Under the pieces are notes generated by a model. The model was given only the letters and a program-made list of their open reading frames with translations, made no database searches and was not told the origin of the DNA. The position numbers and the translations under genes were made by a program. Below, piece after piece: positions 8,031 to 48,534 of a stretch of DNA of 64,000 bases (the first letter of the stretch is position 1; every line of letters begins with the position of its first letter). The stretch is from assembly GCF_008728635.1 (NCBI RefSeq), contig NZ_CP044285.1:1116001-1180000 (forward strand), read 5' to 3'. The DNA comes from Hymenobacter baengnokdamensis (GTDB taxonomy: Bacteria > Bacteroidota > Bacteroidia > Cytophagales > Hymenobacteraceae).

Positions 8031-9890
8031 TCAGCCAAAGTTCAGGGTAAAGCGCGTTCCCTCCTCGACTCGACTATGCACCTTTACGTAGCCACCCATG
8101 GCTTCGACGTGCGCTTTAACCAGAAACAAGCCGATACCCCGGCCTTCGGAAGTAGTATGAAAGCGCTTATATAGCTCAAACACACTATTGCCGGCTTTTT
8201 CGAGGTCGAACCCTAAGCCGTTGTCAGTCACCGTTACCTGGGTGCCCCGGCCGGGTGTGTGGGTAGCTGCGACCTCTATGCGTAGCGGACGCTGCTCGGA
8301 GCGGTACTTGATGGAGTTAGCCAGTAGATTATAAAAAATGCTGTGGAAATAAGCCCGGTTGCCGGGCAGCCGCAGCTCATCGGAAATCGCGCAGGTAATG
8401 CGGCCACCGCAGTCGAGCAGGGCCTGGGCCAGCGTCTGGCGCACTTGCTCGCACACGGCGGCCAGGTGCACGGGCTCGGGGCGACTTATCCGCGCCTTGC
8501 TGCGAATGGAGAGAATGGTATTAACATCGGCAATAATGGTGTCGAGCTGCTGCAAGCTGGTTTGTAGATGCCGCAGGGAGGTATCGAAGGCCGCTGAGTC
8601 TTTTATTTCGTGAGCAAGCAGGGTGGCAAAGCCTCGGGCATTGGCCAGCGGAGCCCGTAGGTTGTGCGAAACAATGTATCCGAATTGCTGCAAATCAGAA
8701 TTTTGCTCAGACAGCTCCTGCGCCATCTGGCGTTGCCTTTCTTCCGCTTCCTTGCGTTCGGTAATATCCTGCATAGAGCCAATCATGCGCACGGCCCGGC
8801 CCGCTGCATCGCGGATAATATGGCCCCGGTCAAATACACTGGCCCAGGAGCCGTTGGCTCGCTGAAAGCGGTATTCCTTCTGCCAGTGCGTGCGGCGCGT
8901 TTCATGGACTATGCGCAGCAGGTCATGAACGGAGTGGGCCACATCGTCGGGGTGCACAAAGTCGGACCACTGCCGAAATTCGGTGGGGTTGCGGACCAGG
9001 TGATGGCCAAACAGGGCTTCGAAGCCTTCGCCCCAAAGCAAAGTGTTGGCGGCTATATTCCAATCGTAAATAGCATCGGTCGTAGCTTTCAGCACGTACA
9101 TAAACCGCTCGTTGCTGGCCCGCAGGTCTTCTTCTATCTTTTTCTGCGCCGTCAGGTCGTACACATTGCCAACCAGCTGGATGCAGACACCAGCCTCGTT
9201 AAAAACCGGCGTCACCGACACTTCGCCTATCCGGCTGCCGGTAGGATACTCGGTCGTTTCCTGCCAGGTCACCCGCTGCCGGGTAGTAATAGCCTGGTGG
9301 TAATAGCGCAGCACCAGGCTCAGCGATGGCTCAGGGATAATTTCCTGCACCAGTCGGCCAACAACTTGAGCAACCGGCAAGCCGGTTGCCTTCTCAAAAG
9401 CCTGGTTGACCACTAAAAACCGGTACTGCTGCCGGGGCGATACGTCCAGTACAAAAAGCACGTCGGAGACGCTCTGGAAAATGACGGCCAGCTGCGATTG
9501 CTCCGGCTCTTTAAGCGCCGGAGCTGCCGGGGGCGCCGTTGGCGCGGGCCGGGCCTGCACCCCGATGCCGGTAAGCTCATGTGCATGGCCGAGCACCGGA
9601 AACGACGTAAGCAGCACCTTATGTGCCCGGCTGCCAAGGCCCGGCCAGTCTACTTCCAGGGTGAGCGCAGTGCCCTGCTGCGCTTTTTCAAGCCAGGCTT
9701 CGGCCGACGTGCGCTCGGCGGGGCCGAGCAGCCCGGTAAAGGCCCGCCCCCGAAGCGCCTCCGTGGTATAGCCAGTAAGATGAGTAAAGGCCTCGTTGAG
9801 CACCGTGAACTCACCCTGGCTATTCAACCAGAAGGCGGCTTCCCGGTAGAGCCTCGGCTGGGTATCTGAAGGCGTTGCGTCAAAGCTCAT
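8031..9890 (-). CDS. Multi-PAS sensor histidine kinase
   Basis: 619 residues without a membrane segment. Three PAS-type units can be read: about 15-115, 133-255 and 260-380. The last ends in the PAC-like segment MIGSMQDITERKEAEERQ, followed by a short coiled coil. The HisKA box is YIVSHNLRAPLANARG with His409. The ATPase domain shows an N box (FYNLLANSIKYRS), a G1 box (DNGLGFDLE) and a G2 box (GRGIGLFLVKAHVEAMGG). The SHNLRAPL variant of the H box is typical of Bacteroidota kinases that pair with separate CheY-like regulators, and one follows at 7625-8023. A Bacteroidota-type promoter lies about 110 bases upstream. Its ligand is unknown. Confidence 0.92.
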   Translation of the reverse strand: MSFDATPSDTQPRLYREAAFWLNSQGEFTVLNEAFTHLTGYTTEALRGRAFTGLLGPAERTSAEAWLEKAQQGTALTLEVDWPGLGSRAHKVLLTSFPVLGHAHELTGIGVQARPAPTAPPAAPALKEPEQSQLAVIFQSVSDVLFVLDVSPRQQYRFLVVNQAFEKATGLPVAQVVGRLVQEIIPEPSLSLVLRYYHQAITTRQRVTWQETTEYPTGSRIGEVSVTPVFNEAGVCIQLVGNVYDLTAQKKIEEDLRASNERFMYVLKATTDAIYDWNIAANTLLWGEGFEALFGHHLVRNPTEFRQWSDFVHPDDVAHSVHDLLRIVHETRRTHWQKEYRFQRANGSWASVFDRGHIIRDAAGRAVRMIGSMQDITERKEAEERQRQMAQELSEQNSDLQQFGYIVSHNLRAPLANARGFATLLAHEIKDSAAFDTSLRHLQTSLQQLDTIIADVNTILSIRSKARISRPEPVHLAAVCEQVRQTLAQALLDCGGRITCAISDELRLPGNRAYFHSIFYNLLANSIKYRSEQRPLRIEVAATHTPGRGTQVTVTDNGLGFDLEKAGNSVFELYKRFHTTSEGRGIGLFLVKAHVEAMGGYVKVHSRVEEGTRFTLNFG

Positions 9891-10192: not shown

Positions 10193-11872
10193 TTACCAGA
10201 ATACCGAGTACAGCGCCACAATAAGGCCCACCACCAGGGTGGCGCCGGCCGTGAACGTGGGGTTGGGGCGGAACATGCTGCGCTCGATTTCGAGGCCGTT
10301 GGTTTTTACGCCGCGAGCGTTTTCAAGCAGGCTGATGAGAACCATGCCGATAATGCAGAACACGAACACAAAGCCCATGCGGTCGAGGAAGGGAATCTCG
10401 TAGCGGCCGGCCACCGGCACCGAAAAGCCAAACGGCGCCAGAAACGAGAGGTCCATCATGCCCGGCAAAAACTTGAGCAGCACCGACAGCAGGAAGCCGC
10501 CGATGGTAGCAAACAGCGCCGCGCTCGACGTGGCTTTCTTCCAGAAAAAGCCCAGGATGAACATGGCGAAAATACCCGGCGACACGAAGCCCGTGTATTC
10601 CTGAATGTACTGGAAGCCGCCTTTCTTGTCGATGCCCAGGTTGGGCGCGATGAGTACGCCCAGAATCATAGCCACCACTACCGCGATTTTGCCCACGGCC
10701 ACCATGCGCTTCTCCGAGGCATCCACGTTGAGCACCTTCTTGTACACGTCGAGGGTGAAGATGGTGGCGATGGAGTTGGCTTTGCCGGCCAGCGAGGCTA
10801 CCACGGCCGCCGTGAGCGCCGCGAACGAAAGGCCTTTCAAGCCCACAGGCAAAATATTGAGCAGCACCGGGTAAGCGCGGTCGGGATTTAGCTCGCCGCC
10901 CTGCATCATCTCCGAGCCAAATACGTTTTGCTTGTACAGCACGTAGGCTGCAATGCCCGGCAGCACCACGATAACCGGCATCAGCAGCTTCAGAAAAGCC
11001 GCGAACAGCAAGCCGCCGCGGGCCGTGGGCAGGTCGGCCCCCAGCGCCCGCTGCGTGATGTACTGGTTGCAGCCCCAGTAGTTGAGGTTCACAATCCACA
11101 TGCCGCCGAGCAGCACCGTGAGGCCCGGCAGGTCGATGTAGTTGGGATTATCCCGCTTGAAAATCATGTGGAAGTGGTCGTTGGCCTGCGTGGTGAGCAG
11201 GTGGAAGCCGTTGAGCACGCCGGTAGTGCCGTTGTGCTTCGCCACCAGATTCAGGGCCAGATAGGTAGTAGCCAGGCCGCCCAGAATAAGGAAAAACACC
11301 TGGATAACGTCGGTGAAGCCAATTACCTTCATGCCGCCCAGCGTGATAATGACGGCGAAGATGGCCAGCGCGTACATGCAGAAATTCAGGTTCAGGCCCG
11401 CGATGCTGCTCACGGCAATGGCCCCGAGGTAAAGAATCGAAGTCAGGTTGACCACCACATACAGCAGCAGCCAAAAAATAGCCATAATCATGGCCACCGT
11501 GCCGTTGTAGCGCTGGTGCAGAAACTGCGGCATGGTGAATATTCGGTTTTTAAGATATACCGGAATGAAAAACACCGCCACGATAATGAGCGTGATGGAG
11601 GCCATCCATTCGTAGGTGGCAATGGCCAGGCCCATCTTGAAGCCCGAGCCCGACATGCCCACAAACTGCTCGGCCGAGATGTTGGAGGCGATGAGCGACG
11701 AGCCGATGGCCCACCACGTCAGCGACCCTTCCGCCAGAAAGTAGTCCTTGGAATCGCCTTCGATAGTGCCGTCGTGGCCGGTCTTGCGGTTGTAAATCCA
11801 GATGCCGTAGCCGGCAACTATCAGAAAATAAACGAAAAAGACTATGTAGTCTAGCGTAGCCAGCTGGTGCAT
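10193..11872 (-). CDS. Sodium/solute symporter (SSS family), probably sugar
   Basis: 559 residues from ATG 11872. An ATG at 11935 would add 21 residues, but the first membrane helix (LATLDYIVFFVYFLIVAGYGIWIY) fits a start at 11872. About 14 hydrophobic segments cover the protein, the SSS (SLC5-like) fold with inner-membrane location and Na+-coupled uptake. Family features include GSSLIASNISAEQFVGMSGSGF near the N-terminus and the GGMWIVNLNYWGCNQYITQRALGA segment typical of sugar-type members such as vSGLT. It lies just downstream of a GH43 glycosidase on the same strand (about 90 bases), so a pentose or galactose released by that enzyme is a reasonable substrate guess. A LacI-type palindrome precedes the start. 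Confidence 0.9.
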   Translation of the reverse strand: MHQLATLDYIVFFVYFLIVAGYGIWIYNRKTGHDGTIEGDSKDYFLAEGSLTWWAIGSSLIASNISAEQFVGMSGSGFKMGLAIATYEWMASITLIIVAVFFIPVYLKNRIFTMPQFLHQRYNGTVAMIMAIFWLLLYVVVNLTSILYLGAIAVSSIAGLNLNFCMYALAIFAVIITLGGMKVIGFTDVIQVFFLILGGLATTYLALNLVAKHNGTTGVLNGFHLLTTQANDHFHMIFKRDNPNYIDLPGLTVLLGGMWIVNLNYWGCNQYITQRALGADLPTARGGLLFAAFLKLLMPVIVVLPGIAAYVLYKQNVFGSEMMQGGELNPDRAYPVLLNILPVGLKGLSFAALTAAVVASLAGKANSIATIFTLDVYKKVLNVDASEKRMVAVGKIAVVVAMILGVLIAPNLGIDKKGGFQYIQEYTGFVSPGIFAMFILGFFWKKATSSAALFATIGGFLLSVLLKFLPGMMDLSFLAPFGFSVPVAGRYEIPFLDRMGFVFVFCIIGMVLISLLENARGVKTNGLEIERSMFRPNPTFTAGATLVVGLIVALYSVFW

Positions 11873-11930
11873 AGGGCGGGAAAAAACGAATGGAAAACGA
11901 AAGTAGGGGAAATTTTGGCGGACCGGGCTA

Positions 11931-11944
11931 TGCAATCGATTGCA
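11931..11944. promoter_or_regulatory. LacI/GalR-type operator palindrome
   Basis: TGCAATCGATTGCA is a perfect 14-bp palindrome centred on a CG step, the usual shape of LacI-family operators. It lies 59 bases upstream of the symporter ATG and after the GH43 stop. It suggests that sugar-responsive repression controls the symporter separately from the glycosidase. No LacI-family regulator gene is present in the window. Confidence 0.5.
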
Positions 11945-11962
11945 ATCGGATAAAGCCGGGTG

Positions 11963-13594
11963 TTAAGGCTCCAGGTGCCACCAGTCGACCAGCGCCGCGC
12001 CGGGCTTGGGGGCGCCCGCCGTGCCCAGGCAAAACAGGCCCAGCTTGGCGCCTACCCACTTGCCCTTGCGGGCAGTAAACTCGGTGCCCAGCGGCTGAAA
12101 CCGGTTGCCGTCGAGGCTGTAGCTGAACTGGCACCGGGCCCCCGGCTGCACCGCCACCCGCAGGTACAGTGGCTGGCCGGCGGGCACTGTTACGGGCGCT
12201 GTGCTGACTTCGGGGCTGCCTTTGTCGGCCTGGAGGCAGGTGCGCTGGCTTAGCTGAATCTGGCCGCCCTGGCGGGTAAGCACGAGGCTGGCGTAGTCCA
12301 TGCCCAGCACAACGAGGCCCGCCTGCTCGCCCTCATTTTGGGGGTGAAAGCTGAGCTTGGCCGTTGCCGTAAACTGCGGCGCCGGCAACTTTTGCAGCAG
12401 CAGATTGGGCACCAGCCATAGGTTCTTGGCCTCGGCGGGCGCGGGCACCGCGTTGAGTGTCAGCACGCCGGCGGTGGGAGAGGGTAGGGTGAGCCAGCCG
12501 GGCTGCGGGTCGGCCTGCCACTGCCATTGCAGGCCCAGCGTTTGGCTGGCAAACTCATCCGACGTGGCGGGCACGGCCACCGCTACCCTGGCCTGCACGG
12601 CGGGCTTGCGGTACGTGAGCACCGGCTCGCCGGTGCCGTCGCCGTCGGGGTCGAGGCCGATAACGGGCCAGTCGTTTTTCCAGGTCATGGGCTGCAGGTG
12701 CACCACCCGGCCGTAGGCGTCCTGGTCCTGGAAGTGCAGAAACCAGTCTTCCTTGCCATCGGGTGTATCGACCCACGCGCCCTGGTGCGGGCCGTTGATA
12801 GGGCTTTTGCCCTGCGCCAGCACGATTTTATCCTCATAAGGCCCGAATACGCTCTTGCTGCGCAGCGCCACCTGCCAGCCCGTGGGCACGCCGCCGCCCG
12901 GCGCGAAGATGTAGTAGTAGCCGTGGCGCTTGTAAAACTTGGGCCCCTCGATGGTCGGGTGGTGCTGGTGCCCGTCAAACACCAGCTTGTCGTCGCCCAT
13001 AAGGCTCAGCCCGTCGGGGGCCATCTCACTGACGTTAATAACGCTCTTGATGCCCGCGCGGCTGCCCGCAAAGGCATGCACGAGGTAGGCACGGCCGTCG
13101 TCGTCCCAGAGCGGGCAGGGGTCAATCCAGCCTTTGGCAGCCTTTACGCACACCGGCGCCGACCACGGGCCGGCCGGGTTGCGGGCCCGCGTCACAAAAA
13201 TGCCAAGGTCGGGGTCGGGATAATAGAGATAAAACTCTTTGTTGTGGTAGCGCAGCGCGGGGGCCCACACGCCGTTGCCGGGCTGCACCTGGTCGTAGCG
13301 CGAGCGCGGCAGCTGCACCGGCAGCGCGGTGCCGATAATGGTCCAGTTAACCAGGTCTTTGGAATGCAGAAGCTGCAGGCCCGGCACCGAGCTGAAGCTC
13401 GACGAAGTGAGATAATAGTCGTCGCCCACCCGCACCACGTCGGGGTCAGAGTAATCGGCGTACAGCACCGGGTTTTTATACTGGCCGTTGCCCAGGTCGG
13501 GCACCCAGGGCCCGGGGCTGGCAGGAGTTTGGGCAAAGGCCGTTAGCGCCAGGCTCGCAGCAGCCAGCGTAAAAAGCAGCGAAAAAAAGCGCAT
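11963..13594 (-). CDS. Secreted GH43 glycoside hydrolase (beta-xylosidase/arabinofuranosidase type)
   Basis: 543 residues from ATG 13594, where a clean signal peptide begins (MRFFSLLF through LTAFAQ, cleavage near 21-22). An upstream ATG at 13774 would put 60 unlikely residues before it. A five-bladed propeller GH43 domain spans about 38-340. The general base is Asp50 in ADYSDPD, the pKa-modulating Asp is in GWIDPCPLWDDDG, and the acid Glu is in TIEGPKFYKRHGYYY. A C-terminal beta-sandwich (about 355-540, ending VDWWHLEP) resembles the XynB-like GH43 accessory domain. It likely removes xylose or arabinose from oligosaccharides in the periplasm or outside. The symporter gene follows on the same strand. 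No SusC/SusD pair is present, so this is a minimal utilisation locus. Confidence 0.92.
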   Translation of the reverse strand: MRFFSLLFTLAAASLALTAFAQTPASPGPWVPDLGNGQYKNPVLYADYSDPDVVRVGDDYYLTSSSFSSVPGLQLLHSKDLVNWTIIGTALPVQLPRSRYDQVQPGNGVWAPALRYHNKEFYLYYPDPDLGIFVTRARNPAGPWSAPVCVKAAKGWIDPCPLWDDDGRAYLVHAFAGSRAGIKSVINVSEMAPDGLSLMGDDKLVFDGHQHHPTIEGPKFYKRHGYYYIFAPGGGVPTGWQVALRSKSVFGPYEDKIVLAQGKSPINGPHQGAWVDTPDGKEDWFLHFQDQDAYGRVVHLQPMTWKNDWPVIGLDPDGDGTGEPVLTYRKPAVQARVAVAVPATSDEFASQTLGLQWQWQADPQPGWLTLPSPTAGVLTLNAVPAPAEAKNLWLVPNLLLQKLPAPQFTATAKLSFHPQNEGEQAGLVVLGMDYASLVLTRQGGQIQLSQRTCLQADKGSPEVSTAPVTVPAGQPLYLRVAVQPGARCQFSYSLDGNRFQPLGTEFTARKGKWVGAKLGLFCLGTAGAPKPGAALVDWWHLEP

Positions 13595-13698
13595 AAAGAA
13601 CCAGAAATTGCCGGAATAACGGCTCAAGGTAGAAAAGCCACTGCATAAGCTGCCAGGAGCGCAGTAGGAGCACAGGACTACGCATTGGCCTGGCGTTG

Positions 13699-13706
13699 TA
13701 ATTTTG
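13699..13706 (+). promoter_or_regulatory. Candidate -7 promoter element of the sugar locus
   Basis: TAATTTTG matches TAnnTTTG. It lies 18 bases before the GTG start of the first gene of the 13.7-21.6 kb locus. No good -33 TTTG is seen at the expected distance, so confidence is limited. Confidence 0.35.
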
Positions 13707-13724
13707 TAGGCATACCTAATTTCT

Positions 13725-14804
13725 GTGCTTGTGAAAAAAGCGTTGTACCTCATCGGCTCGCCCAACCAAACCACGCAGATGCACCGCGTGGCCCAGCTGC
13801 TGGAAGATGAGTACGAGCCTTACTTCAGCCAGCTGTACTACGATGGCTGGATGCGGGGCTTCTACGAGTGGCTGCTGCGCAACAACATCCTGGATAAGAC
13901 CATTGTGCAGGGCCTGGTAAAGGAGAAGGCCGACCGCTACGTGGCCCAGCACCAGCTGCGCCGTGACTTCGAAAACCGCGAGCTGGGGTATGCCTATGAC
14001 CTTATCGTGTGCTGCTCCGACATTGTGGTGCCCTGGCCGCTGCTGAAGAAAACCAAGTCGGTGTTTGTGCAGGAAGGAATGACCGACCCGCTCAACCTGT
14101 GGGCGCGGCTCGTGAAACGCTTCACCAATTTTCCCATTCTGGCCATCGGCACCGCGCTCAATGGCATGAACAACTGCTGCGACATTTATTGCGTGGCCTC
14201 GCCCGGCTACGCCGAGCATTTCGAGAAAATCGGGGTCGATAAGGACAAGCTCGTCGTAACGGGCATTCCCAACTTCGACGACGTAGAAAAGCTGCGCAAC
14301 AATAACTTTCCGCACCGCGGCTACGTGCTGGTGGCCACCACCGACATGCGCGAAACCTTTCGGCGCGACAACCGCAAAAAGTTTATCCGCCACGCCACGC
14401 GCATTGCGGCCGGCCGGCCCATGATTTTCAAGTTTCACCCCAACGAAGACATGGCCCGCGCCACGGCCGAGGTGCGCCAGTACGCGCCGCCCGGCACCCT
14501 CATCTTCACCGAAGGCAACACCGAGGAGATGATTGCCAACTCTGTGGAGCTGATAACGCAATACAGCACCGTGGCCTACGTTGGGCTGGCGCTGGGTATT
14601 CCGGTGCATTCCTACTTCGATGTCGAAGACCTCAAGCGTAAGCTGCCTATTCAGAACGGCGGCACCAGCGCCCGGCGCATTGCCGACATCTGCCGGCAGT
14701 TCGGGCGGTTTGAGGGGTCGGGCCCGCAGTTTTTAAAGCAGTACAAACCCCAGCCCGCACCTGAGCGCCAGGCGGAGCTCACCGAAGCCCGGCATTCCCG
14801 CTAG
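13725..14804 (+). CDS. GT-B-like surface-polysaccharide transferase
   Basis: 359 residues, starting at GTG 13725 (a second GTG is at 13731; no ATG is available near the promoter). There is no signal peptide. The N-terminal half has alternating hydrophobic strands and DLIVCCSDIVVP. The C-terminal half holds MIFKFHPNEDM and the LITQYSTVAYVGLALGIPVHSYFD segment. The HPNE and S-T-V-A-x-x-GL-x-LG-I-P pattern is like that of CDP-glycerol/polysialyl/capsule transferases and UDP-GlcNAc 2-epimerase-fold proteins, where it binds the sugar nucleotide. It is the first gene of the locus and 13 bases before the cytidylyltransferase. I infer that it transfers the CMP-sugar made by the following genes, but an epimerase-like role cannot be excluded. 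Confidence 0.7.
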   Translation: MLVKKALYLIGSPNQTTQMHRVAQLLEDEYEPYFSQLYYDGWMRGFYEWLLRNNILDKTIVQGLVKEKADRYVAQHQLRRDFENRELGYAYDLIVCCSDIVVPWPLLKKTKSVFVQEGMTDPLNLWARLVKRFTNFPILAIGTALNGMNNCCDIYCVASPGYAEHFEKIGVDKDKLVVTGIPNFDDVEKLRNNNFPHRGYVLVATTDMRETFRRDNRKKFIRHATRIAAGRPMIFKFHPNEDMARATAEVRQYAPPGTLIFTEGNTEEMIANSVELITQYSTVAYVGLALGIPVHSYFDVEDLKRKLPIQNGGTSARRIADICRQFGRFEGSGPQFLKQYKPQPAPERQAELTEARHSR

Positions 14805-14817
14805 TAGCTAGTATTTT

Positions 14818-15612
14818 ATGCTTACGCTCATTCAGGCCCGGCGCGGCTCTTCGCGCCTCCCCGATAAAGTCAGCCTCGACCTCTGCGGCCGGCCGCTGCT
14901 GGTGCGCCAGGTCGAGCGCATGCAGCGGGCCCGGCTGGCGGGCCATGTGGCCGTCATCACCACCGACGAGCCCGGCGATGACGCACTCGTTGAAATATGC
15001 AATAAGTACGATATTAGCGTTTTTCGTGGCAATGCCCTCGACCTGCTCGACCGCCACTACCAGGCCGCCCGGCACTTCGGCGAAACTGAGGCGGTAGTAA
15101 AAATACCGAGCGACTGCCCGCTCATCGACCCGGCTATTATTGACAAAGTGCTGTCACTATATACGGAAACTGTTGGGCAGTATGATTTCGTGAGCAATCT
15201 GCACCCCGCCACCTATCCCGATGGCAACGATGTAGAGGTAATGACCTTCGCGGCTCTCGAAACCGCCTGGCGCGAGGCGCGCCGCCCGCTGGAGCGCGAG
15301 CATACCACGCCGTTTTTTTGGGAGAATCCCGACCGCTTTCGCCTCGCCAACGTGACGTGGGAGACCGGCCTGGATTATTCCATGTCGCACCGGTTTACCA
15401 TTGACTATCCGGCTGACTATGAGTTTATAAAAGCGGTATACGAAGCGCTTTATCCAGCAAATCCTCATTTTGGGCTGGAAGATATTCTGACTTTATTAAA
15501 ACAAAGGCCGGACATTTACGCCTTAAACGCCGACTTGGCCGGTGTAAACTGGTACCGCAACCACCTCGACGAATTGAAAACCGTGGATGCGGGCAATACA
15601 AAGCAAGTATAA
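14818..15612 (+). CDS. SpsF-type cytidylyltransferase
   Basis: 264 residues. The N-terminus LTLIQARRGSSRLPDKVSLDLCGRPLL is the nucleotide-binding signature of the CMP-NeuAc/CMP-Kdo synthetase family in its SpsF (spore coat polysaccharide F) version. An acidic metal-binding segment follows in KIPSDCPLIDP, and FTIDYPADYEF is in the C-terminal third. The enzyme would load a sugar acid or related sugar with CTP, giving the CMP-activated donor. It lies 13 bases after the transferase and upstream of the transketolase subunits. The pairing with a NeuB-like synthase at 20696 supports an ulosonic-acid-type product. Confidence 0.85.
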   Translation: MLTLIQARRGSSRLPDKVSLDLCGRPLLVRQVERMQRARLAGHVAVITTDEPGDDALVEICNKYDISVFRGNALDLLDRHYQAARHFGETEAVVKIPSDCPLIDPAIIDKVLSLYTETVGQYDFVSNLHPATYPDGNDVEVMTFAALETAWREARRPLEREHTTPFFWENPDRFRLANVTWETGLDYSMSHRFTIDYPADYEFIKAVYEALYPANPHFGLEDILTLLKQRPDIYALNADLAGVNWYRNHLDELKTVDAGNTKQV

Positions 15613-15619
15613 ACCATTC

Positions 15620-15725
15620 TGTCATGCTGACGAAGGAAGCATCTTATCACGGCTGCCTTCGCCAGAATTAGTTAGCCCCCGAGTGCTGTGAGCGTGATAA
15701 GATGCTTCGCAGGCTCAGCATGACA
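15620..15725. repeat. Intergenic palindromic element, family B copy 1
   Basis: The left arm 15620-15650 begins TGTCATGCTGA and ends GCATCTTATCAC. The right arm 15694-15725 mirrors it, from GTGATAAGATGC to TCAGCATGACA, with mismatches only in the middle. It fills almost the whole gap between the cytidylyltransferase and transketolase genes. A second copy of the same word order is at 21604-21708. Confidence 0.8.
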
Positions 15726-15733
15726 ATTGCCTT

Positions 15734-16591
15734 ATGACTACCGAAAAAAAACAAGCGCTCTCCGAGCTCGCCCTGCGCGTGCGCGAGCACATCGTTCGCC
15801 TCAGCACCGATGGCGGCTGCTTTACCGGGGCTTCGCTGAGCTGCGCCGACCTGCTGGTGTATCTCTACGCCGACTTCCTCAATGTAAATCCGGGTAACCT
15901 CCAGGACCCCGAGCGCGACTATCTTTTCCTGAGCAAGGGCCACGACGTGCCGGCCCTTTATGGCACCTTTGCCGAGCTGGGCTTCATGCCGAAGGAGCGG
16001 CTGCAAAACCACCTGAAGTCGAACGACTCCATCTATTGGCACCCCAACCGGAATGTGCCGGGCGTCGAGTTTCACTCGGGCTCGCTGGGCCACCTGCCGA
16101 GCGTAGCGCTGGGCGTGGCGCTGGATGCCCGCCTGCGCGGCCAGCAGCAGCACGTCATCGTCATCACCGGCGACGGCGAGCTGAACGAGGGCACCTGCTG
16201 GGAAGCCCTGCTCGTAGCCAGCGCCCACAAGGTGAACAACCTGACTATCGTGGTGGACCGCAACCACTTCCAGGCCAACATCGCCACCGAAGACCTCATT
16301 CCGCTCGAGCCGCTGGCCCCCAAGTTTGAGGCGTTTGGCGCCGTGGTAAAGCGCATCGACGGCCACGACTTTACGGCCCTGGAAGAGGCCTTTACGGCCC
16401 TGCCGTTCAGCCCCGACAAGCCCTCGGTTATCATCTGCGACACGGTGCGCGGCCGGGGCCTGCCCAGCATCGAGCGCCGGGCCGACCGCTGGTTCTGCAA
16501 TTTCTCGAGTGAGGAAATCACGTCGCTGCTCAAGGAGCTGCACAGCCAGGAAGCCACCAAGCTCACGAGCGAAACCCTGACCGTCCGATAA
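15734..16591 (+). CDS. Transketolase, N-terminal (TPP-binding) subunit
   Basis: 285 residues, matching the N-terminal half of a split transketolase. Family landmarks are YLFLSKGHDVPALYG, GSLGHLPSVALGVALDARL, and the thiamine-diphosphate motif GDGELNEGTCWEAL through NLTIVVDRNHFQ. With the subunit at 16783 it would move two-carbon ketol units between sugar phosphates using TPP and Mg2+. The genomic setting, between a cytidylyltransferase and a PLP enzyme, points to a dedicated role in surface-sugar synthesis rather than the pentose-phosphate pathway. The two subunit genes are separated by a 187-base palindromic element. Confidence 0.93.
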   Translation: MTTEKKQALSELALRVREHIVRLSTDGGCFTGASLSCADLLVYLYADFLNVNPGNLQDPERDYLFLSKGHDVPALYGTFAELGFMPKERLQNHLKSNDSIYWHPNRNVPGVEFHSGSLGHLPSVALGVALDARLRGQQQHVIVITGDGELNEGTCWEALLVASAHKVNNLTIVVDRNHFQANIATEDLIPLEPLAPKFEAFGAVVKRIDGHDFTALEEAFTALPFSPDKPSVIICDTVRGRGLPSIERRADRWFCNFSSEEITSLLKELHSQEATKLTSETLTVR

Positions 16592-16592
16592 T

Positions 16593-16779
16593 CGCAGATT
16601 TAACGGATTTAACGGATTGCGCAGATACGCTTGGCTGCGCCAAGCTGACTACGCGGACGTTACCCGTTAAGCTGCGAGCGTGGCTCAGCCAGTCGCTTAC
16701 CCATTACCTGCCATTGTCAGCGTAGTCAGCTTGCGCAGCAAGCGTATCCGCGCAATCCGTTAAATCCGTTAAATCTGCG
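16593..16779. repeat. Intergenic palindromic element, family C
   Basis: The arms at 16593-16658 and 16716-16779 are near-exact reverse complements over about 64 bases. The outer ends are CGCAGATTTAACGG and its mirror CCGTTAAATCTGCG, and the inner ends carry AGCTGACTACGC and its mirror. It contains a short direct repeat, ATTTAACGG twice. It occupies the entire gap between the two transketolase subunit genes, so an RNA spanning both would form a very long stem. Confidence 0.85.
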
Positions 16780-16782
16780 GTC

Positions 16783-17736
16783 ATGAATTACGAACAGCTT
16801 ATCCACGAAACCGCCCTGGCCGACGAGCGCCTGCTGGTGATGACGGCCGAAAACCGCGCCCTTATCCGCAACCTGCCCGGCCCACTGGGGCCGCGCTTCA
16901 TCGACACCGGCATTACCGAGCAAACCATGATTGGCGCGGCGGCCGGCCTGGCCCTGCGCGGGCGCGTGCCGGTAGTGCACGCCCTGGCGACGTTCCTCAC
17001 GCTGCGGGCGTTTGAGTTTATCCGGACCGATGTGGGAATTCCGCACTTACCGGTGAAAATCAGCGCGTTCGTACCCGGCTTTCTCTCCGACGGCAACGGC
17101 CCGACCCACCAGGCCATTGAGGATGTTTCGCTCATGCGCGGCATTCCGGGCATGACGGTTTTCGCCCCCGCCGACGAGCAGGATATGCTGGCCATGCTGC
17201 CCGCTATCTGGGCCTCGCCCGACCCCGCTTACCTGCGCGTCAATACCCGGCCCGCTACTTACCAGCACACCCCGTTTGAAATCGGTAAGGCTGAGATTGT
17301 GAGCGAAGGCAAGGACATCACCATCCTCACCTACGGGATGCTGTTTGAGCAGGCGCTCATTGCCAAAGACTTACTCACCCAGGCGGGCTACTCGGTGGGT
17401 CTCGTTAACCTGCGCAGCCTCAAGCCCTTGGATGAGGCCGCCGTACTGAACGTAGTGAAAGCCGGCAGCCTGGTCGTGACCCTGGAAGACCATTTCCAGA
17501 CCGGCGGCCTCTACTCTATTCTGGCCGAGCTGCTGCTCGAACACGAACTGACCGCCAAGGTGCTGCCGCTGGCCCTGAAGGAGCGCTGGTACAAGCCCGG
17601 CCTGCTGAGCGAAGTGCTCGAATACGAAGGCTTTACCGGCCAGCACATTGCCCGCCGCATCGGCGAGCGCCTGGGCGGCGGCGCGCATACCTTTGGCGCC
17701 AAAACCAAAGTGGTTGAAAACGAATTTGCCGAGTAA
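16783..17736 (+). CDS. Transketolase, C-terminal subunit
   Basis: 317 residues covering the pyrimidine-binding and C-terminal domains of transketolase. It opens with residues that pack on TPP (LLVMTAENRALIRNLPGPLGPRFIDTGITEQTMIGAAAGLALRG), where the Glu of GITEQ is the conserved cofactor-activating Glu. GNGPTHQAIEDVSLMRGIPGMTVFAPAD follows, with the conserved His and Asp, and the transketolase C domain is from about 190. It is the partner of the subunit at 15734. Two-subunit transketolases recur in archaea and in bacterial polysaccharide loci. Confidence 0.93.
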   Translation: MNYEQLIHETALADERLLVMTAENRALIRNLPGPLGPRFIDTGITEQTMIGAAAGLALRGRVPVVHALATFLTLRAFEFIRTDVGIPHLPVKISAFVPGFLSDGNGPTHQAIEDVSLMRGIPGMTVFAPADEQDMLAMLPAIWASPDPAYLRVNTRPATYQHTPFEIGKAEIVSEGKDITILTYGMLFEQALIAKDLLTQAGYSVGLVNLRSLKPLDEAAVLNVVKAGSLVVTLEDHFQTGGLYSILAELLLEHELTAKVLPLALKERWYKPGLLSEVLEYEGFTGQHIARRIGERLGGGAHTFGAKTKVVENEFAE

Positions 17737-17752
17737 TTTTTCAGATGTGAAG

Positions 17753-17847
17753 ATGTGTGGAATGTGGGAATGTGAAAATATTCTTTAACAGGAAGCAGGT
17801 AGCGATAGCCAACTAATTCATTTTCACATTTCCCACATTCCGCACAT
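17753..17847. repeat. Intergenic palindromic element, family D
   Basis: The left arm 17753-17779 (ATGTGTGGAATGTGGGAATG onward) and the right arm 17820-17847 (ATTTTCACATTTCCCACATT onward) are reverse complements apart from one substitution and one single-base indel. The spacer is about 40 bases. It fills the gap between transketolase and the PLP enzyme and is unrelated in sequence to families B, C and E. Confidence 0.75.
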
Positions 17848-17862
17848 TTCCACCTTTAAAAG

Positions 17863-19164
<1,302 letters not shown>

Positions 19165-19186
19165 GCTTTTGCTGCCCGTTAACGCA

Positions 19187-19241
19187 GGTGCCTCACCCCT
19201 AGCCCCTATCCGACAAGGAGATGGGCTAAGGGTGAGGCACC
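19187..19241. repeat. Intergenic palindromic element, family E
   Basis: GGTGCCTCACCC (19187-19198) and GGGTGAGGCACC (19230-19241) are perfect mirrors, with an inner AGCCC/GGGCT pair. The loop is about 17 bases. It lies in the gap between the PLP enzyme and the SDR and resembles the GAGGGG-rich hairpins seen between genes in this lineage. Confidence 0.7.
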
Positions 19242-19260
19242 ACGTAAAAACGACAACCAT

Positions 19261-20067
19261 ATGAATTTCTTCGACTTAACCAATAAAACGGCCATCGTAA
19301 CGGGCGCGTGCGGCCTTATTGGCCAGAAGCACTGCGAAGCCCTGGCCCTGGCCGGCGCCAACGTGGTCGTGGCCGACCTGCACCTCGACAAAGCCCGCGA
19401 AGTAGCCGCCGGTCTGCCCGGCGGGATTCACTTGCCGCTGGCCGTAGACGTAACCTCGCCCGAGTCGCTGGCCGCCGCCCGCGACGCCATTATCGAGCGC
19501 TTCGGCCACCTCGATATTCTGGTGAATAATGCCGCCATCAACGACATGTTTGAGAACCCGGCCCTGGCTGCCGACCTCAGCAAGTTTGAGAATTTTCCAC
19601 TCGCTACGTTTCGGCAGGTGCTGGACGTGAACGTGACCGGTATTTTCCTCGCCGCGCAGGTATTCGGCACGCCGATGGCCGAGCAAGGCAGCGGCTCTAT
19701 CATCAACGTGGCCAGTACTTATGGTATCGTGGGCCCCGACCAGAGCATCTACCGCAACGAAGCCGGCGAGCAAACCTTTTATAAATCACCATCTTATCCC
19801 ATGACCAAGGGCGCGGTGGTGAATTTTACCCGCTACCTGGCCGCCTATTGGGGCGCCAAGGGCGTGCGCGTGAATACGCTCTCGCCGGGCGGCGTCGAAA
19901 ACAGCCAGGATGCCTTCTTCGTGAAGCAGTACAGCGCCAAAACCCCCCTAGGCCGCATGGCCCTGCCCACCGACTACCAGGGCGCGGTGGTATTCCTCGC
20001 GTCCGATGCCTCGGCCTACATGACCGGCGCCAACCTGGTGGTAGATGGCGGCTGGACCGCCATTTAG
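19261..20067 (+). CDS. Short-chain dehydrogenase/reductase (SDR)
   Basis: 268 residues, classical SDR. The dinucleotide-binding site is VTGACGLIGQKHCEAL with VVVADL after it. The active site has NNAAIND, the Ser of INVASTYG, and Tyr/Lys in YPMTKGAVV. The C-terminus GANLVVDGGW is typical of the family. It would reduce a keto group or oxidise a hydroxyl on a sugar-derived intermediate with NAD(P)(H). Relatives of this general type are found beside NeuB-like synthases in legionaminic-type loci (PtmA-like). The next gene starts 36 bases later. Confidence 0.92.
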   Translation: MNFFDLTNKTAIVTGACGLIGQKHCEALALAGANVVVADLHLDKAREVAAGLPGGIHLPLAVDVTSPESLAAARDAIIERFGHLDILVNNAAINDMFENPALAADLSKFENFPLATFRQVLDVNVTGIFLAAQVFGTPMAEQGSGSIINVASTYGIVGPDQSIYRNEAGEQTFYKSPSYPMTKGAVVNFTRYLAAYWGAKGVRVNTLSPGGVENSQDAFFVKQYSAKTPLGRMALPTDYQGAVVFLASDASAYMTGANLVVDGGWTAI

Positions 20068-20103
20068 GTGTTAATTTCGGCTATTATTTCACCAGAATTT
20101 TAT

Positions 20104-20637
20104 ATGAAGCACGCTGACCTGGCTGCCAAAGCCCGCCGCATCAAGCTGCTACTTACTGATTGCGACGGCGTGCTGACCGATGGAGGCGTGTATTACGGCG
20201 AAAGTGGTGAAGTATTAAAAAGATTTAATATTCGCGATGGAATGGGTGTGGAGCGCCTGCGGGCCGTGGGCGTCGAAACGGGTATCGTGACCGGCGAGCG
20301 CTCACCTTCGGTGCAGAAGCGGGCCGATAAGCTGAAAATCAGTGAGTTGCACCTCGGCATCAAGGACAAGGCTACTTTGCTGGGTGAGATTCTGGCCCGC
20401 CTTGGCCTCACGGCCGAGCAGGTGGCTTTCCTGGGTGATGATACCAACGACGTGGAAATTCTGGGCCTGGTGGGTCTGGCGGCCTGCCCCGGCGATGCCA
20501 CGGTTTTTGCCCGTAGCGCCGCCGACTACCGCTGCCAGGCGCACGGCGGGCACGGCGCTTTCCGCGAGCTGGCCGAGCTGATTATCAGCTGCCAGACCGG
20601 CGGGCAGCCTGCCACCCACGACGAACATTCTGAATAA
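20104..20637 (+). CDS. KdsC/NeuNAc-9-phosphatase-like HAD phosphatase
   Basis: 177 residues from ATG 20104. An ATG at 20068 is too close to the SDR stop and adds 12 poor residues. HAD motif I is LLTDCDGVLTDGGVYY, motif II lies at TGERS, and the acidic motif III is FLGDDTNDVEIL. The absence of a cap and the length fit KdsC-type phosphatases, which remove the phosphate after a KdsA/NeuB-type condensation. In this locus it would act on the phosphorylated product of the synthase at 20696, before CMP activation. This implies that the NeuB-like step uses a sugar phosphate. Confidence 0.9.
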   Translation: MKHADLAAKARRIKLLLTDCDGVLTDGGVYYGESGEVLKRFNIRDGMGVERLRAVGVETGIVTGERSPSVQKRADKLKISELHLGIKDKATLLGEILARLGLTAEQVAFLGDDTNDVEILGLVGLAACPGDATVFARSAADYRCQAHGGHGAFRELAELIISCQTGGQPATHDEHSE

Positions 20638-20695
20638 TTTTGACCGGTGGGCGCGCCGACTATTTCTTCCACTCATTTTCTCTTCATTCTACCCA

Positions 20696-21580
20696 ATGAG
20701 TATCGTTCAAATCAAGAAAAACCGCGCTATCGGCCCCGGCCAGCCGTGCTACATCATTGCCGAAATCGGCATCAACCACAACGGCTCGCTCGATATTGCC
20801 AAGCAGCTGATTGACGCGGCCGTAACCGCCGGCTGCGACGCGGTGAAGTTTCAGAAGCGCACCCCCGAGCTGTGCGTCCCCAAAGACCAGTGGGAGAAAA
20901 TGCGCGATACCCCCTGGGGCCGCATGAGCTACATCGACTACAAGCGCAAAACCGAGTTTGGCCAGCAGGAATACACGGCCATCGACGATTACTGCAAGGC
21001 GCGCGGCATCGACTGGTTTGCCTCGTGCTGGGATGAGCCGTCGGTCGATTTTATGGAGCAGTTTCAGCCGGTGCTCTACAAAATGGCCTCCGCTTCGCTC
21101 ACCGACAAGCCCCTGCTCGACCGCGTGCGCGCCACCGGCCGCCCGCTAATGCTGAGCACCGGCATGAGTACCCAGCAGGAAATCACCGACGCCGTGGCCT
21201 ACGTGGGGCTTGATAACCTGATGATTGCCCACTCTACCTCGGCTTACCCCTGCCCGCCCCAGGAGCTGAACCTGCGCATGGTGCAGACCCTGATGGCGCA
21301 GTTTCCGGGCACGCCCATCGGCTACTCGGGCCACGAAACCGGCCTCAGCACCACCGTAACGGCCGTGGCGCTGGGTGCCACCTTCGTCGAGCGCCACTTC
21401 ACCCTCGACCGCGCCATGTGGGGTTCCGACCACGCGGCCAGCGTAGAGCCCGGCGGCATGGCCAAGCTCGTGCGCGACATCCGCGACACCGAAGCCGGCC
21501 TCGGCGACGGCGTGAAAGTGGTGTACGAAAGCGAGAAAGAGCCCCTGCGTCGCCTGCGCCGCGAGGTGTCGGCCGCGTAG
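20696..21580 (+). CDS. NeuB/SpsE-family PEP-dependent sugar-acid synthase, SAF domain missing
   Basis: 294 residues. TIM-barrel landmarks of the NeuNAc synthase family are AEIGINHNGSLDIAKQLIDAA, CDAVKFQKRTPE, FASCWDE, KMASASLTDKPLL, LSTGMSTQQEI and GYSGHETG, followed by VERHFTLDRAMWGSDHAASVEP. Such enzymes condense phosphoenolpyruvate with an aldose or amino-sugar. Usual members have about 340-350 residues and end in an antifreeze-like SAF domain that closes over the active site of the dimer partner. Here the protein stops right after the barrel, at the Glu-rich linker. The stop is clean and I see no SAF coding sequence in the next 200 bases, which hold a palindromic repeat. The substrate is unknown. 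Confidence 0.88.
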   Translation: MSIVQIKKNRAIGPGQPCYIIAEIGINHNGSLDIAKQLIDAAVTAGCDAVKFQKRTPELCVPKDQWEKMRDTPWGRMSYIDYKRKTEFGQQEYTAIDDYCKARGIDWFASCWDEPSVDFMEQFQPVLYKMASASLTDKPLLDRVRATGRPLMLSTGMSTQQEITDAVAYVGLDNLMIAHSTSAYPCPPQELNLRMVQTLMAQFPGTPIGYSGHETGLSTTVTAVALGATFVERHFTLDRAMWGSDHAASVEPGGMAKLVRDIRDTEAGLGDGVKVVYESEKEPLRRLRREVSAA

Positions 21581-21815: not shown

Positions 21816-22859
21816 ATGTTAGCGTCGATAAGCGAGTTTTATCACAGCCTCAACGCCGTAGGGCGCACTACCTTCATTACCACGCCCATTCTGCTGCTGG
21901 CGGTGGCGGTTCTGCTGGTGCTGGAGCGCAAAATCCCGTATCGCAAGGGTCTGCCGTTTTTCCGCGAGGGCTTGTTCGTCGACTTGTTCTGGTACACGCT
22001 GGTGCAGAGCTACTTTCTGCAAATAGTAATTTTTGGCTTCATCATCGCGCCGCTGGCCGCGCACTTCGGGGCGCGGTTTCACCTGCTGAGCAGCTGGCCG
22101 GTGGCGGCGCAGGTGGGCTTTTTTGTGATAACCCACGACTTTTACATCTACTGGTTTCACCGCTTCCAGCACAGCAGCGCATTTTTCTGGCGCACCCACG
22201 AGGCGCACCACTCGGGCAAGCAGGTAGACTGGCTGGCCGGCTCGCGCTCGCACATCATGGAGATTGTCATCAATCAGACCATTGAGTTTGCGCCCATTAT
22301 TTTGCTGGGTGCGAACCCGATAGTGGTGCCCATTAAGGCGCTGATTGATGCAGTCTGGGGCATGTACATTCATGCCAACATCGACGTGAAATCGGGTAAG
22401 CTGCAGTATGTTGTCAATGGCCCCGAGATGCACCTCTGGCACCACGCCGACCACGAGGAAGTGTACTATGCCAACTTCTCGACCAAGTTCGCGGTCTGGG
22501 ACTGGCTGTTTGGTACCGCTTTTTTGCCCCAGAACCGCAAGCCCGAGCGTTGGGGCCTGCCCTATGCTTTTCCGAAAGACTATTTTGCCCAGCATGCCTT
22601 TTCCGTAGTTCGCTTCGATGAAGCCGCGCTGGCCGAAAAATCGAGGCTGTTTCGCTATTACCACGGCCTGCGCTGGCGCGTATTGGGCTGGCTGGGCAAC
22701 CGAATGCCCGCCGCCAAAGTATTGCAGGGCTGGGAGGTGCCCGAGGAGGTGCATACTACTGTGCCCGCCCCGCGCCCCGGTGGCAACCCTTCCGGGGCTG
22801 CGCCCGTTGCTCCTGCCTTAGCCGATTCTTCTCGCCCCGTTGCCACTGCCGCCTCTTGA
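21816..22859 (+). CDS. Sterol desaturase/fatty-acid hydroxylase family membrane protein
   Basis: 347 residues. Four or more hydrophobic segments lie in the first 200 residues. The three histidine clusters that bind the di-iron centre are present: HDFYIYWFHRFQH, THEAHHSG, and HLWHHADHEE. Such enzymes hydroxylate or desaturate lipids in the inner membrane using O2. The C-terminal 50 residues are Pro/Ala/Gly-rich and probably unstructured. The stop TGA overlaps the TTG start of the SMR transporter, so the two are co-translated. The lipid substrate cannot be named from sequence. Confidence 0.9.
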   Translation: MLASISEFYHSLNAVGRTTFITTPILLLAVAVLLVLERKIPYRKGLPFFREGLFVDLFWYTLVQSYFLQIVIFGFIIAPLAAHFGARFHLLSSWPVAAQVGFFVITHDFYIYWFHRFQHSSAFFWRTHEAHHSGKQVDWLAGSRSHIMEIVINQTIEFAPIILLGANPIVVPIKALIDAVWGMYIHANIDVKSGKLQYVVNGPEMHLWHHADHEEVYYANFSTKFAVWDWLFGTAFLPQNRKPERWGLPYAFPKDYFAQHAFSVVRFDEAALAEKSRLFRYYHGLRWRVLGWLGNRMPAAKVLQGWEVPEEVHTTVPAPRPGGNPSGAAPVAPALADSSRPVATAAS

Positions 22860-23239
22860 CTTTCAGCTTCAACCCCGCCTGGCTTTACCTGCTGCTGGCT
22901 TCCGTGATGGAAGTGTGCTGGAACTACAGCCTCAAATACACGAGTGTGGCCAAGATTAAGGCCATCGACTGGTCGCATTTCTTCGCCGCTCCGGCTGGTA
23001 TTACTACTCTGCTGCCCGCTATCGGCTACGTGGGCTTTGGTGTAGCCAACGTATTCTTTTTCTCCAAGGCCCTCAACGTAATACCCGCCTCCACGGCCTT
23101 CGCTATCTGGATGGGCATCGCCCTGGTAGGCATCAAAATCGTGGATACGCTGGTACTCAAAGAAGCTTTCCAGTGGGCGCACGTCTTCTATATTGGCTGC
23201 ATTCTGGTTGGCATCATCGGACTGAAACGAACTTCGTAA
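22856..23239 (+). CDS. Small multidrug resistance (SMR/EmrE-like) transporter
   Basis: 127 residues with four membrane helices. The start is TTG 22856, overlapping the preceding stop by four bases. The next Met would cut into helix 1, so the TTG is needed. The essential membrane Glu of the family is present in LLASVMEVCWNYSLKY, and the fourth helix ends GIIGLKRTS. SMR proteins exchange protons for cationic drugs or guanidinium-type compounds as antiparallel dimers. Its overlap with the hydroxylase gene suggests joint expression, perhaps flipping or exporting a lipid-related product, but this is inference. Confidence 0.88.
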   Translation: MTFSFNPAWLYLLLASVMEVCWNYSLKYTSVAKIKAIDWSHFFAAPAGITTLLPAIGYVGFGVANVFFFSKALNVIPASTAFAIWMGIALVGIKIVDTLVLKEAFQWAHVFYIGCILVGIIGLKRTS

Positions 23240-47454: not shown

Positions 47455-48534
47455 ATGAACCAGATGAATAGTCCGCTCATCCGGGTCGGCGTTTTCTACG
47501 ACGGCAATTATTTCCTTAAAATAAGCGATTATTATTATTTTCAGCATGAGCGTAAGGCCCGTATCAGTCTCGAAGGCCTGCACGAATTTATTAGGCATCA
47601 GGTAGCTGAGGAAGAAGACGTTGACGTACGTCTGGCGCAGATAACTACTTCCCATTTTTTCCGGGGCCGGCTATCGGCAACCGAAGCCCGCGACAAAGAC
47701 CGACTCTTTCACGACCGCCTGCTCGACGATATTCTGATGAACCTGGGCGTGTGCACGCACTACATGCCCCTCAAAACCCGCGACGGCCGCCTGCAAGAGA
47801 AAGGCATCGACGTGTGGCTCAGCCTCGAAGCGCTCGAAATGGCGCTGCACAAAACCCTCGATGTGGTCGTGCTCATTGCCGGGGACTCCGATTACGTGCC
47901 CCTCATTCGCAAGCTCAACACCGTGGGTACCCGCGTGATGCTGCTCAACTGGGATTTCAAATACGAAGATTTCAAGGGGGAAACCCGCGTAACCCGCGCC
48001 TCGCAGCACCTGCTTGAGCAGGCCACTTACCCGGTAGCTATGCACGCCGTTATCGACCGCGGCTTGCAGGAGCAGGATGAAGTGGTGGAGAATATGTTTG
48101 TGACGCAAAGCGAGCCGGCCGCGTTTGCTACCCTGCCGGCCCCCGCAGCCACCAATGGCAGCGCCAATGGGTTTGCAGCGGCTGCTACTACAGCTGCCGC
48201 AGCCGCCGCAAGCCGGGCCGTGCGCCCCACCGGCCCCACGGCGGCCGGCCCGGTTGGCACCATCGGCATCAGCACTATTAAGAATCTGAAAAACGGCTTC
48301 GGATTTGTCGTAATGCCCCCTAACAACTTGTTTTTCAGCTACGCAGATTTATCGGAAGGCGACTTCAACGACCTGCGCGAAGGCGATTGGGTAGAATTTA
48401 CCGTGGGGCGCAACCACCGCGATGAAGATTGCGCCCGCAACGTGCGCAAAGTTGCCGCTCCCAATATGGTCGGCGACGAAGAGGGTGACTACGAGCCCAG
48501 CGCCGTACCGCAGTCGGTAGGCGCAGAGCTGTAA
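47455..48534 (+). CDS. NYN-domain nuclease fused to a cold-shock domain
   Basis: 359 residues. An NYN (PIN-like, LabA/DUF88 type) domain covers about 8-195. The acidic metal site can be read as Asp16 (GVFYDGNYF), Asp119 (KGIDVWLSLEAL) and Asp144/Asp146 (IAGDSDYVPLIRKL). An Ala/Thr/Pro-rich linker covers 220-265. A divergent cold-shock OB domain is at 266-333: GTIGISTIKNLKNGFGFVVM in place of the usual RNP1, then LFFSYADL in place of RNP2. The protein probably binds single-stranded RNA through the C-terminal domain and cleaves it with the NYN domain, in the cytoplasm. A very long hairpin follows the stop. Which RNA it targets is unknown. Confidence 0.88.
   Translation: MNQMNSPLIRVGVFYDGNYFLKISDYYYFQHERKARISLEGLHEFIRHQVAEEEDVDVRLAQITTSHFFRGRLSATEARDKDRLFHDRLLDDILMNLGVCTHYMPLKTRDGRLQEKGIDVWLSLEALEMALHKTLDVVVLIAGDSDYVPLIRKLNTVGTRVMLLNWDFKYEDFKGETRVTRASQHLLEQATYPVAMHAVIDRGLQEQDEVVENMFVTQSEPAAFATLPAPAATNGSANGFAAAATTAAAAAASRAVRPTGPTAAGPVGTIGISTIKNLKNGFGFVVMPPNNLFFSYADLSEGDFNDLREGDWVEFTVGRNHRDEDCARNVRKVAAPNMVGDEEGDYEPSAVPQSVGAEL

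Follow-up and report, generated by a model that had tools for sequence, protein, structure and literature searches.

The genome of Hymenobacter baengnokdamensis (4.43 Mb) carries, within the stretch of 64,000 nucleotides analysed here (C1:1116001-1180000, hereafter the window), a cassette of ten genes that we consider, on balance, to be a self-contained system making and using one cytidine monophosphate (CMP)-activated 3-deoxy-ulosonic acid, probably aminated, on a membrane acceptor that is perhaps a lipid. Ulosonic acids shape the outer appearance of many bacteria, and the routes to them that we know of start from nucleotide-activated hexosamine, mannose-6-phosphate or arabinose-5-phosphate. 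If our reading is true, the acceptor aldose would come from a dedicated transketolase with an altered active site, a new entry point to ulosonic acids.

Eight open reading frames (ORFs), all on the plus strand (13725-21580), are separated by gaps of 0-191 bases, and the ORFs as well as their Pfam and NCBIfam assignments agree with the eight families named in the initial annotation. The cassette extends past NeuB to position 23239 with a fatty acid hydroxylase-family (FAH) gene and a gene for a small membrane protein of the SMR family, which overlap by 4 bases (Table 1). The Pfam scan covered 21 proteins of the window, and the best E-values of the families from SpsF to NeuB range from 1e-7 to 1e-77. 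From these families we infer a pathway in which the short-chain dehydrogenase (SDR) would oxidise, and the class-III aminotransferase aminate, a sugar or sugar phosphate; the split transketolase would transfer a two-carbon unit to give an aldose, NeuB would condense this aldose with phosphoenolpyruvate (PEP), the HAD enzyme would strip the phosphate and SpsF would produce the CMP-sugar. The GT-B enzyme would then put the sugar onto a membrane acceptor, most likely a lipid, prepared or moved by the hydroxylase-type enzyme, together with the SMR protein in those loci that have one. Each reaction, the order of steps (above all of oxidation, amination and two-carbon transfer), the amination and chain length of the product and its lipid acceptor are predictions from sequence.

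Table 1. Genes of the cassette, with positions in the window and the matches on which the assignments rest.
Gene product	Position	Strand	Evidence
GT-B-fold protein, probable CMP-ulosonic acid transferase	13725..14804	+	predicted fold, weak TIGR04396
SpsF-type cytidylyltransferase (predicted CMP activation)	14818..15612	+	CTP_transf_3 PF02348, 88 bits
Split transketolase N subunit (TKN), thiamine diphosphate (ThDP)-binding, GGCF clade	15734..16591	+	Transketolase_N PF00456
Split transketolase C subunit (TKC)	16783..17736	+	Transket_pyr PF02779 + Transketolase_C PF02780
Class-III pyridoxal phosphate (PLP) aminotransferase, glutamate-1-semialdehyde (GSA)-like	17863..19164	+	Aminotran_3 PF00202
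Short-chain dehydrogenase (SDR)	19261..20067	+	adh_short_C2 PF13561, 166 bits
KdsC-type HAD phosphatase	20068..20637	+	HAD; TIGR01670, 144 bits (cut-off 106.95)
NeuB-type PEP-condensing synthase without SAF domain	20696..21580	+	PF03102, 258 bits
FA_hydroxylase-family membrane enzyme (FAH), OlsE-like	21816..22859	+	PF04116, 95 bits
SMR-family small membrane protein, SugE-like	22856..23239	+	PF00893, 49 bits

The grouping of these genes is not due to chance, since dozens of loci, whose flanks are unrelated, show them in the same order. Scanning genome contigs with a TKN alignment left 80 loci, 57 of which (L015-L071) match TKN at 50% identity or more. All seven core genes (GT, SpsF, TKN, TKC, GSA, SDR and NeuB) are present in 36 of these 57 and share a single order in 36/36, the recurrent arrangement being GT-SpsF-TKN-TKC-GSA-SDR-(HAD)-NeuB-(FAH)-(SMR); at two loci (L046 and L057) NeuB, FAH and SMR stand in a convergent second operon. 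Among the 21 incomplete loci, 12 are shorter than 13 kb, in most cases through truncation at a contig end; the other nine span 14.7-20.9 kb. The latter include three lone GGCF-type transketolase pairs with no cassette within about 10 kb (L065, 10001-11746; L066, 9980-11733; L068, 10001-11735), L065 being the second split pair of a contig that also carries cassette L062. At L071 of Spirosoma telluris, the GT-B gene is divided between two ORFs (8084-8958) and the other cassette genes are part-matched, through decay or sequencing error. The other 23 loci (L072-L094) match TKN at 36-44% and hold no cassette; in four of them (L073, L087, L088 and L093) other cassette genes, at least one per locus, have weak relatives, L073 having relatives of SpsF, GSA, transketolase, SDR and NeuB at 31-41%.

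In the reverse search, the GSA-like gene served as anchor: of 395 genomes of the phylum, 62 gave a match at E<=1e-70, with an identity of at least 53% in 53 genomes and of 35-40% in the other nine. Regions were taken around 52 of the 53 strong matches (the window's own not being among them) and eight of the nine weak ones (all except that of G286). GT, SpsF, GSA, SDR and NeuB stand in one stretch in 45 of the 52 strong loci; the remaining seven hold GT-SpsF-TKN-TKC-GSA (L126), TKN-TKC-GSA (L146, L151, L155 and L169) or GSA alone (L141 and L147), and the genomes of L141, L146 and L147 carry an orthologous TKN at 66-69%, on a separate contig for L141 and L147. None of the eight weak regions contains the cassette (in one, L183, genes resembling SpsF and NeuB occur at 31-35%). 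Co-occurrence in other genomes, which the initial annotation had singled out as a check, is therefore widespread with either anchor. ORF clustering of 54 loci and the window returned 11 families present in at least four loci, that is, the ten cassette families and one other found in five loci.

Cassettes were found in Hymenobacter, Saprospiraceae, Mucilaginibacter, Spirosoma, Ignavibacteria, Kapaibacterium, Anaerolineae, Chloroflexia and Holophagales, hence across Bacteroidota, Ignavibacteria, Chloroflexota and Holophagales, and a plasmid of Methylomagnum ishizawai carries the same eight genes. Within the genus, TKN occurs in 48 of 120 genomes (own genome included) with identities of at least 81%; in the remaining genomes no listed match exceeds 41%. 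This patchy distribution, together with the unrelated flanks and the one plasmid, suggests that the cassette may be transferable between genomes, and the 72 genomes of the genus without TKN offer natural contrasts to the 48 for lipidomics and glycan analysis. Pairwise distances correlate between cassette genes at 0.57-0.87 (55 loci), with 0.87 for TKC-GSA and 0.86 for TKC-SDR, whereas GT, NeuB and FAH correlate mutually at 0.79; the resulting division into two gene groups is weak because GSA also correlates with NeuB (0.81).

The cassette is accessory rather than housekeeping, because the genome holds its own transketolase and hemL. A PF00456 search of the genome retrieved a full-length transketolase at C1:3317530 (484 bits; 88 bits for the cassette subunit), and a true hemL scores above cut-off at C1:3591832 (607 bits; 234 for the cassette GSA-like gene). 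Two circumstances that the initial annotation saw as fatal to a dedicated pathway, namely that these would be the only transketolase and the only hemL of the genome, are thereby set aside.

The sugar genes form a separable module, since seven of them stand without GT, FAH and SMR genes in a locus of Marinoscillum (L064). This locus reads SpsF-TKN-TKC-GSA-SDR-HAD-NeuB, with no match for the GT-B, hydroxylase or SMR proteins, and its copies are diverged (TKN 56%, NeuB 53%, GSA 36%, SDR 30%). It suggests that synthesis of the sugar would fall to the seven genes, whereas GT-B, FAH and SMR would represent its use in the stand-alone cassette. L064 is flanked by UDP-glucose (UDPG) dehydrogenase and epimerase genes on one side and by Wzy_C, Polysacc_synt and methyltransferase genes on the other, which speaks for another explanation, in which the sugar is destined for a surface polysaccharide or lipopolysaccharide (LPS) core, with the genes for hydroxylase and SMR protein as passengers. 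We hold this to be rather unlikely. In 66 of 79 loci, FAH is on the strand of NeuB and no more than 3.5 kb from it, and it stays with NeuB in the split convergent operons of L046 and L057; these 79 loci have a NeuB match of at least 50% identity and 2.5 kb beyond it, and are not 79 independent genomes as the TKN- and GSA-anchored sets overlap. Moreover, 110 neighbour proteins matched 192 Pfam families, and the 25 commonest of these are devoid of glycosyltransferases, flippases (Wzx) and polymerases (Wzy); the proteins scanned are 110 of 285 ORFs, with 13 named loci, loci without GT, SpsF, GSA and NeuB, the long ORFs and every locus after L134 lying outside the scan. The LPS and exopolysaccharide loci mentioned in the initial annotation are not supported as the usual setting either: no such recurrent family emerged from ORF clustering, and one locus, L064, is of the polysaccharide type.

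A lipid acceptor for the CMP-sugar is likely, though tentative. The histidine clusters of FAH are conserved in 33 sequences, and the hydroxylase matches a single NCBIfam model, OlsE (NF052566), with scores of 88-112 bits (106.9 for the window's protein) against a cut-off of 475. OlsF-type acyltransferase genes lie 1.8-3.7 kb beyond NeuB on the same strand in eight distinct loci (L049, L053, L060, L128, L134, L150, L160 and L161, L060 being taken, from its length and hits, as the contig of L153), behind an opposite-strand ORF at L049, and the two proteins tested exceed the OlsF cut-off (720 and 737 versus 620). In Methylomagnum, the cassette is followed by LplT and by OlsB-like and OlsA-like genes, both Ols matches being beneath cut-off. 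In ten loci (L050, L051, L054, L162, L167, L168 and L171-L174), a calcineurin-like metallophosphoesterase gene stands behind the hydroxylase, on the same strand and about 1.4-1.7 kb beyond NeuB. In an Anaerolineae locus without hydroxylase match (L042, 15651-18676), genes for GNAT, metallophosphoesterase and PhyH-type dioxygenase proteins come after the cassette. In 31 of the 79 loci, the SMR gene is no further than 4.5 kb from NeuB.

The most distinctive component is the split transketolase, whose subunits look like ThDP-dependent two-carbon transferases with an altered substrate site. Their nearest solved chains are those of the Carboxydothermus split-chain transketolase (6yak for TKN, 6yaj for TKC). 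The motif GDGEL.EG, whose GDG we take to bind ThDP, is invariant in TKN, and the glutamate of GITEQ, presumably catalytic in transketolase, is conserved in 12 split rows. The alteration is suggested by the replacement of active-site and phosphate-site residues. The canonical SGHPG reads GGCF.G in the split clade, with F30 at the first active-site histidine; of the 95 loci matching TKN at 50% or more, 93 have this motif and two are truncated at the N end, and none of 23 generic split transketolases has it. The second active-site histidine (WHG in 6yak) corresponds to F254 or W253, depending on the alignment, and is a histidine in neither (RWF in 86/95 TKN loci, RWY in 1/95, 8/95 outside the pattern). 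By comparison with 6yaj, TKC has a valine at the counterpart of Escherichia coli H461 and an asparagine at that of D469; the regions of R358 and R520, which with H461 presumably form the donor-phosphate site, are not reliably alignable.

The split pair is replaceable, as seen among the 52 GSA-anchored loci. SpsF is directly followed by GSA, with no split pair, in 12 of them (L127, L128, L131, L135, L139, L142, L143, L148, L149, L152, L158 and L166), and at L170 a single-chain transketolase fills the slot in the cassette (genome given for this enzyme, G505). Thirteen cassette genomes lack the split pair, with no TKN match above 41%; eleven of these encode an extra single-chain transketolase of 652-663 amino acids, 38-41% identical to TKN, another (G478) holds one in pieces and the last (G138) has just a relative of 256 amino acids. 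Such an extra enzyme occurs in 0/36 genomes with a split subunit (Fisher exact 2.7e-9, kinship uncorrected), where single-chain matches reach 25-36% identity, the 36% over 62 residues only; in G325, the longer single-chain frame runs through a stop. Within family f17, the extra enzyme is present in 4/6 split-less and 0/13 split-bearing genomes. It is not simply a housekeeping copy, since nine of the eleven genomes also hold an ordinary full-length transketolase (G353 has no second transketolase match and G505 has a split one instead). This substitution fits what is stated in the chaxamycin paper, where the two-subunit transketolase of 3-amino-5-hydroxybenzoic acid (AHBA) synthesis makes imino-erythrose-4-phosphate and can be replaced by another enzyme of the genome (PMC4551226).

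The best match of the SpsF-type protein among solved structures is 6oew; it stays below the kdsB models (35-50 bits, cut-offs 155-281), and two further PF02348 genes lie elsewhere in the genome. The GSA-like enzyme is near PRK06209 (388 versus 486 bits), falls beneath the cut-offs of the GSA models listed and fails the hemL model (233.9 bits versus 527.3). It keeps the PLP lysine (K251, aligned with that of GSA aminomutase and invariant in alignment A1) and carries K26 and H374, both invariant in A1, at the positions of Arg32 and Glu406 of GSA aminomutase, which we take to bind GSA; its gating loop is about 11 residues shorter. Judging from these substitutions and the shortened loop, the PLP enzyme is predicted not to be a GSA aminomutase. 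The best NCBIfam models for the SDR are gluconate 5-dehydrogenase and glucose 1-dehydrogenase subfamilies, beneath cut-off. The phosphatase belongs to the KdsC/YrbI family, short of the KdsC equivalog NF007019 (149.7 bits, cut-off 208). NeuB (294 amino acids) has PF03102 as its only Pfam match and no SAF domain, the NeuB_NnaB model being matched up to 281/329; it scores beneath the NnaB and PseI equivalog cut-offs, and its nearest solved relatives are 1vli (SpsE) and 6ncs (a 290-residue chain).

These data bear on the possibility that the transketolase supplies erythrose-4-phosphate or a similar compound in bulk and that the product is an ordinary 3-deoxy-D-glycero-D-galacto-nonulosonic acid (KDN) or 3-deoxy-D-manno-octulosonic acid (Kdo). 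The absence of the split pair at 12 loci and the closeness of the phosphatase to the KDN-9-phosphate phosphatase model NF058599 (159.5 bits, cut-off 180) are in its favour, but the split pair has lost two active-site histidines, the genome has a separate full-length transketolase and two other PF02348 genes, and the known KDN pathway needs no aminotransferase. We find this explanation improbable.

The first gene encodes a protein with no Pfam family and only a weak NCBIfam match. AlphaFold (AF2) predicts for it, at a mean pLDDT of 89.4, a GT-B fold nearest to NeuC/UDP-GlcNAc 2-epimerases, then to MurG, TarL and TagF; KpsC, polysialyltransferase and other CMP-sugar transferases lie outside the 50 fold matches listed, which carries no weight against them. 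GT-B transferases have an acidic-G, an HP and an S/T motif, and EG, HP and S are invariant across 38 aligned sequences; a CMP-ulosonic acid transferase is the probable assignment. The resemblance to NeuC suggests, alternatively, a UDP-sugar 2-epimerase opening a diverged sialic-acid-type route from UDP-HexNAc, with the transketolase and aminotransferase in side branches. However, the epimerase family PF02350 is unmatched, and what we take to be the 2-epimerase motifs GTRPE, HRREN and DSGG.QEE read GS.NQ, D.RE and YS[ST] in the 38 sequences. Furthermore, the GT-B gene is not needed for sugar synthesis in L064, whose seven sugar genes stand without it. No UDP- or GDP-sugar dehydratase or 2-epimerase was found by Pfam among the ten genes, but the first protein has NeuC as nearest fold. 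The 2-epimerase reading appears quite doubtful. Finally, the altered transketolase site and the presence of lipid enzymes (hydroxylase, OlsF-type) would suit a scheme where transketolase and aminotransferase build the lipid part, by two-carbon transfer to a fatty aldehyde and amination, with NeuB making a sugar separately, yet this is very improbable as L064 pairs transketolase, aminotransferase and SDR with NeuB and SpsF and has neither hydroxylase nor SMR.

Several observations count against a self-contained cassette with a lipid acceptor. The GT-B model is as close to NeuC as to any transferase. The substitute single-chain transketolase retains both histidines lost in the split pair, with a proline at the D469 position, so the two forms may not be equivalent in function. 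Neither HAD nor SMR is obligatory, 21 of 87 NeuB loci having no detected HAD and 48 of 79 no detected SMR; 13 of 79 lack FAH. The closest match of the SMR protein is SugE, which exports small cations (51.4 bits with NF008512, cut-off 126), rather than lipid flippases. Lastly, PF13444 has no match in the own genome and is not enriched genome-wide with the cassette (18/53 with versus 152/342 without).

With PF13444 unmatched, an ornithine or glycine lipid (OlsF/OlsBA) is unlikely as acceptor in the own genome. GH3-type aminolipid synthesis by OlsH, as described in PMC12493201, is likewise not supported as a general acceptor route: the list of 152 genomes with a GH3 match includes just four of the 53 with the cassette, namely G000 (two matches), G032, G217 and G264, and 9 of 20 listed genomes free of GH3 matches carry the cassette.

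Elsewhere in the window, a GH43 beta-xylosidase-type gene adjoining a sodium:solute symporter gene lies on the minus strand (10193-13774), divergent from the cassette. A protein with two 3-keto-disaccharide hydrolase (PF06439) stretches is encoded at 6230-7618, and an NYN-domain protein with a C-terminal cold-shock-domain match slightly below the curated cut-off at 47455-48534.

The initial annotation had proposed a CMP-ulosonic route using a transketolase and a GSA-type enzyme; a dedicated route is supported, but the PLP enzyme does not appear to be a GSA aminomutase and the transketolase has lost two active-site histidines. A broader view, that the cassette defines a new class of membrane glycolipids, with a zwitterionic amino-ulosonic acid made via a remodelled split transketolase, placed on a hydroxylated lipid, flipped outward and spread as a transferable cassette across Bacteroidota, Ignavibacteria, Chloroflexota and some others, is conceivable but should be taken as tentative. 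The sugar itself appears undescribed, the cassette being a variant within the CMP-ulosonic-acid kind; no published title or abstract joining a split transketolase with NeuB or SpsF was found, subscription papers being outside this search.

Compared with known systems, the families imply that the cassette shares PEP condensation, dephosphorylation and cytidine triphosphate activation with the KDN and Kdo pathways, but its NeuB lacks the SAF domain, and to our knowledge those routes have no dedicated transketolase, aminotransferase or SDR. The Carboxydothermus enzyme (6yak/6yaj) has the same two-subunit architecture, with GHPGGSLS and WHG in 6yak where the cassette clade has CFTGASLS and RWFC. 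As regards OlsE/OlsF, the hydroxylase is OlsE-like and OlsF adjoins some cassettes, but the OlsE cut-off is not reached and the own genome is devoid of PF13444. The Legionella Sg6 O-antigen locus encodes, like the cassette, a GSA-type aminomutase, a cytidylyltransferase and NeuB, whereas the Sg6/12 and the legionaminic and pseudaminic acid loci have PseG and HisF/HisH partners, and the portion of the source giving the Sg6 listing shows no transketolase (PMC3694923). The logic of the cassette resembles, by analogy, the aminoshikimate route to AHBA (Rif15A/B, Sare_1272/1273), which, according to PMC4551226, comprises an oxidoreductase, a PLP aminotransferase, a two-subunit transketolase, a PEP-type condensation and a phosphatase. 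The kanosamine kinase and later ring-forming enzymes of that route have no counterpart among the ten cassette genes, and it ends in an aromatic acid via an amino-DAHP (3-deoxy-D-arabino-heptulosonate 7-phosphate) synthase, where the cassette has NeuB and a CMP-activating enzyme.

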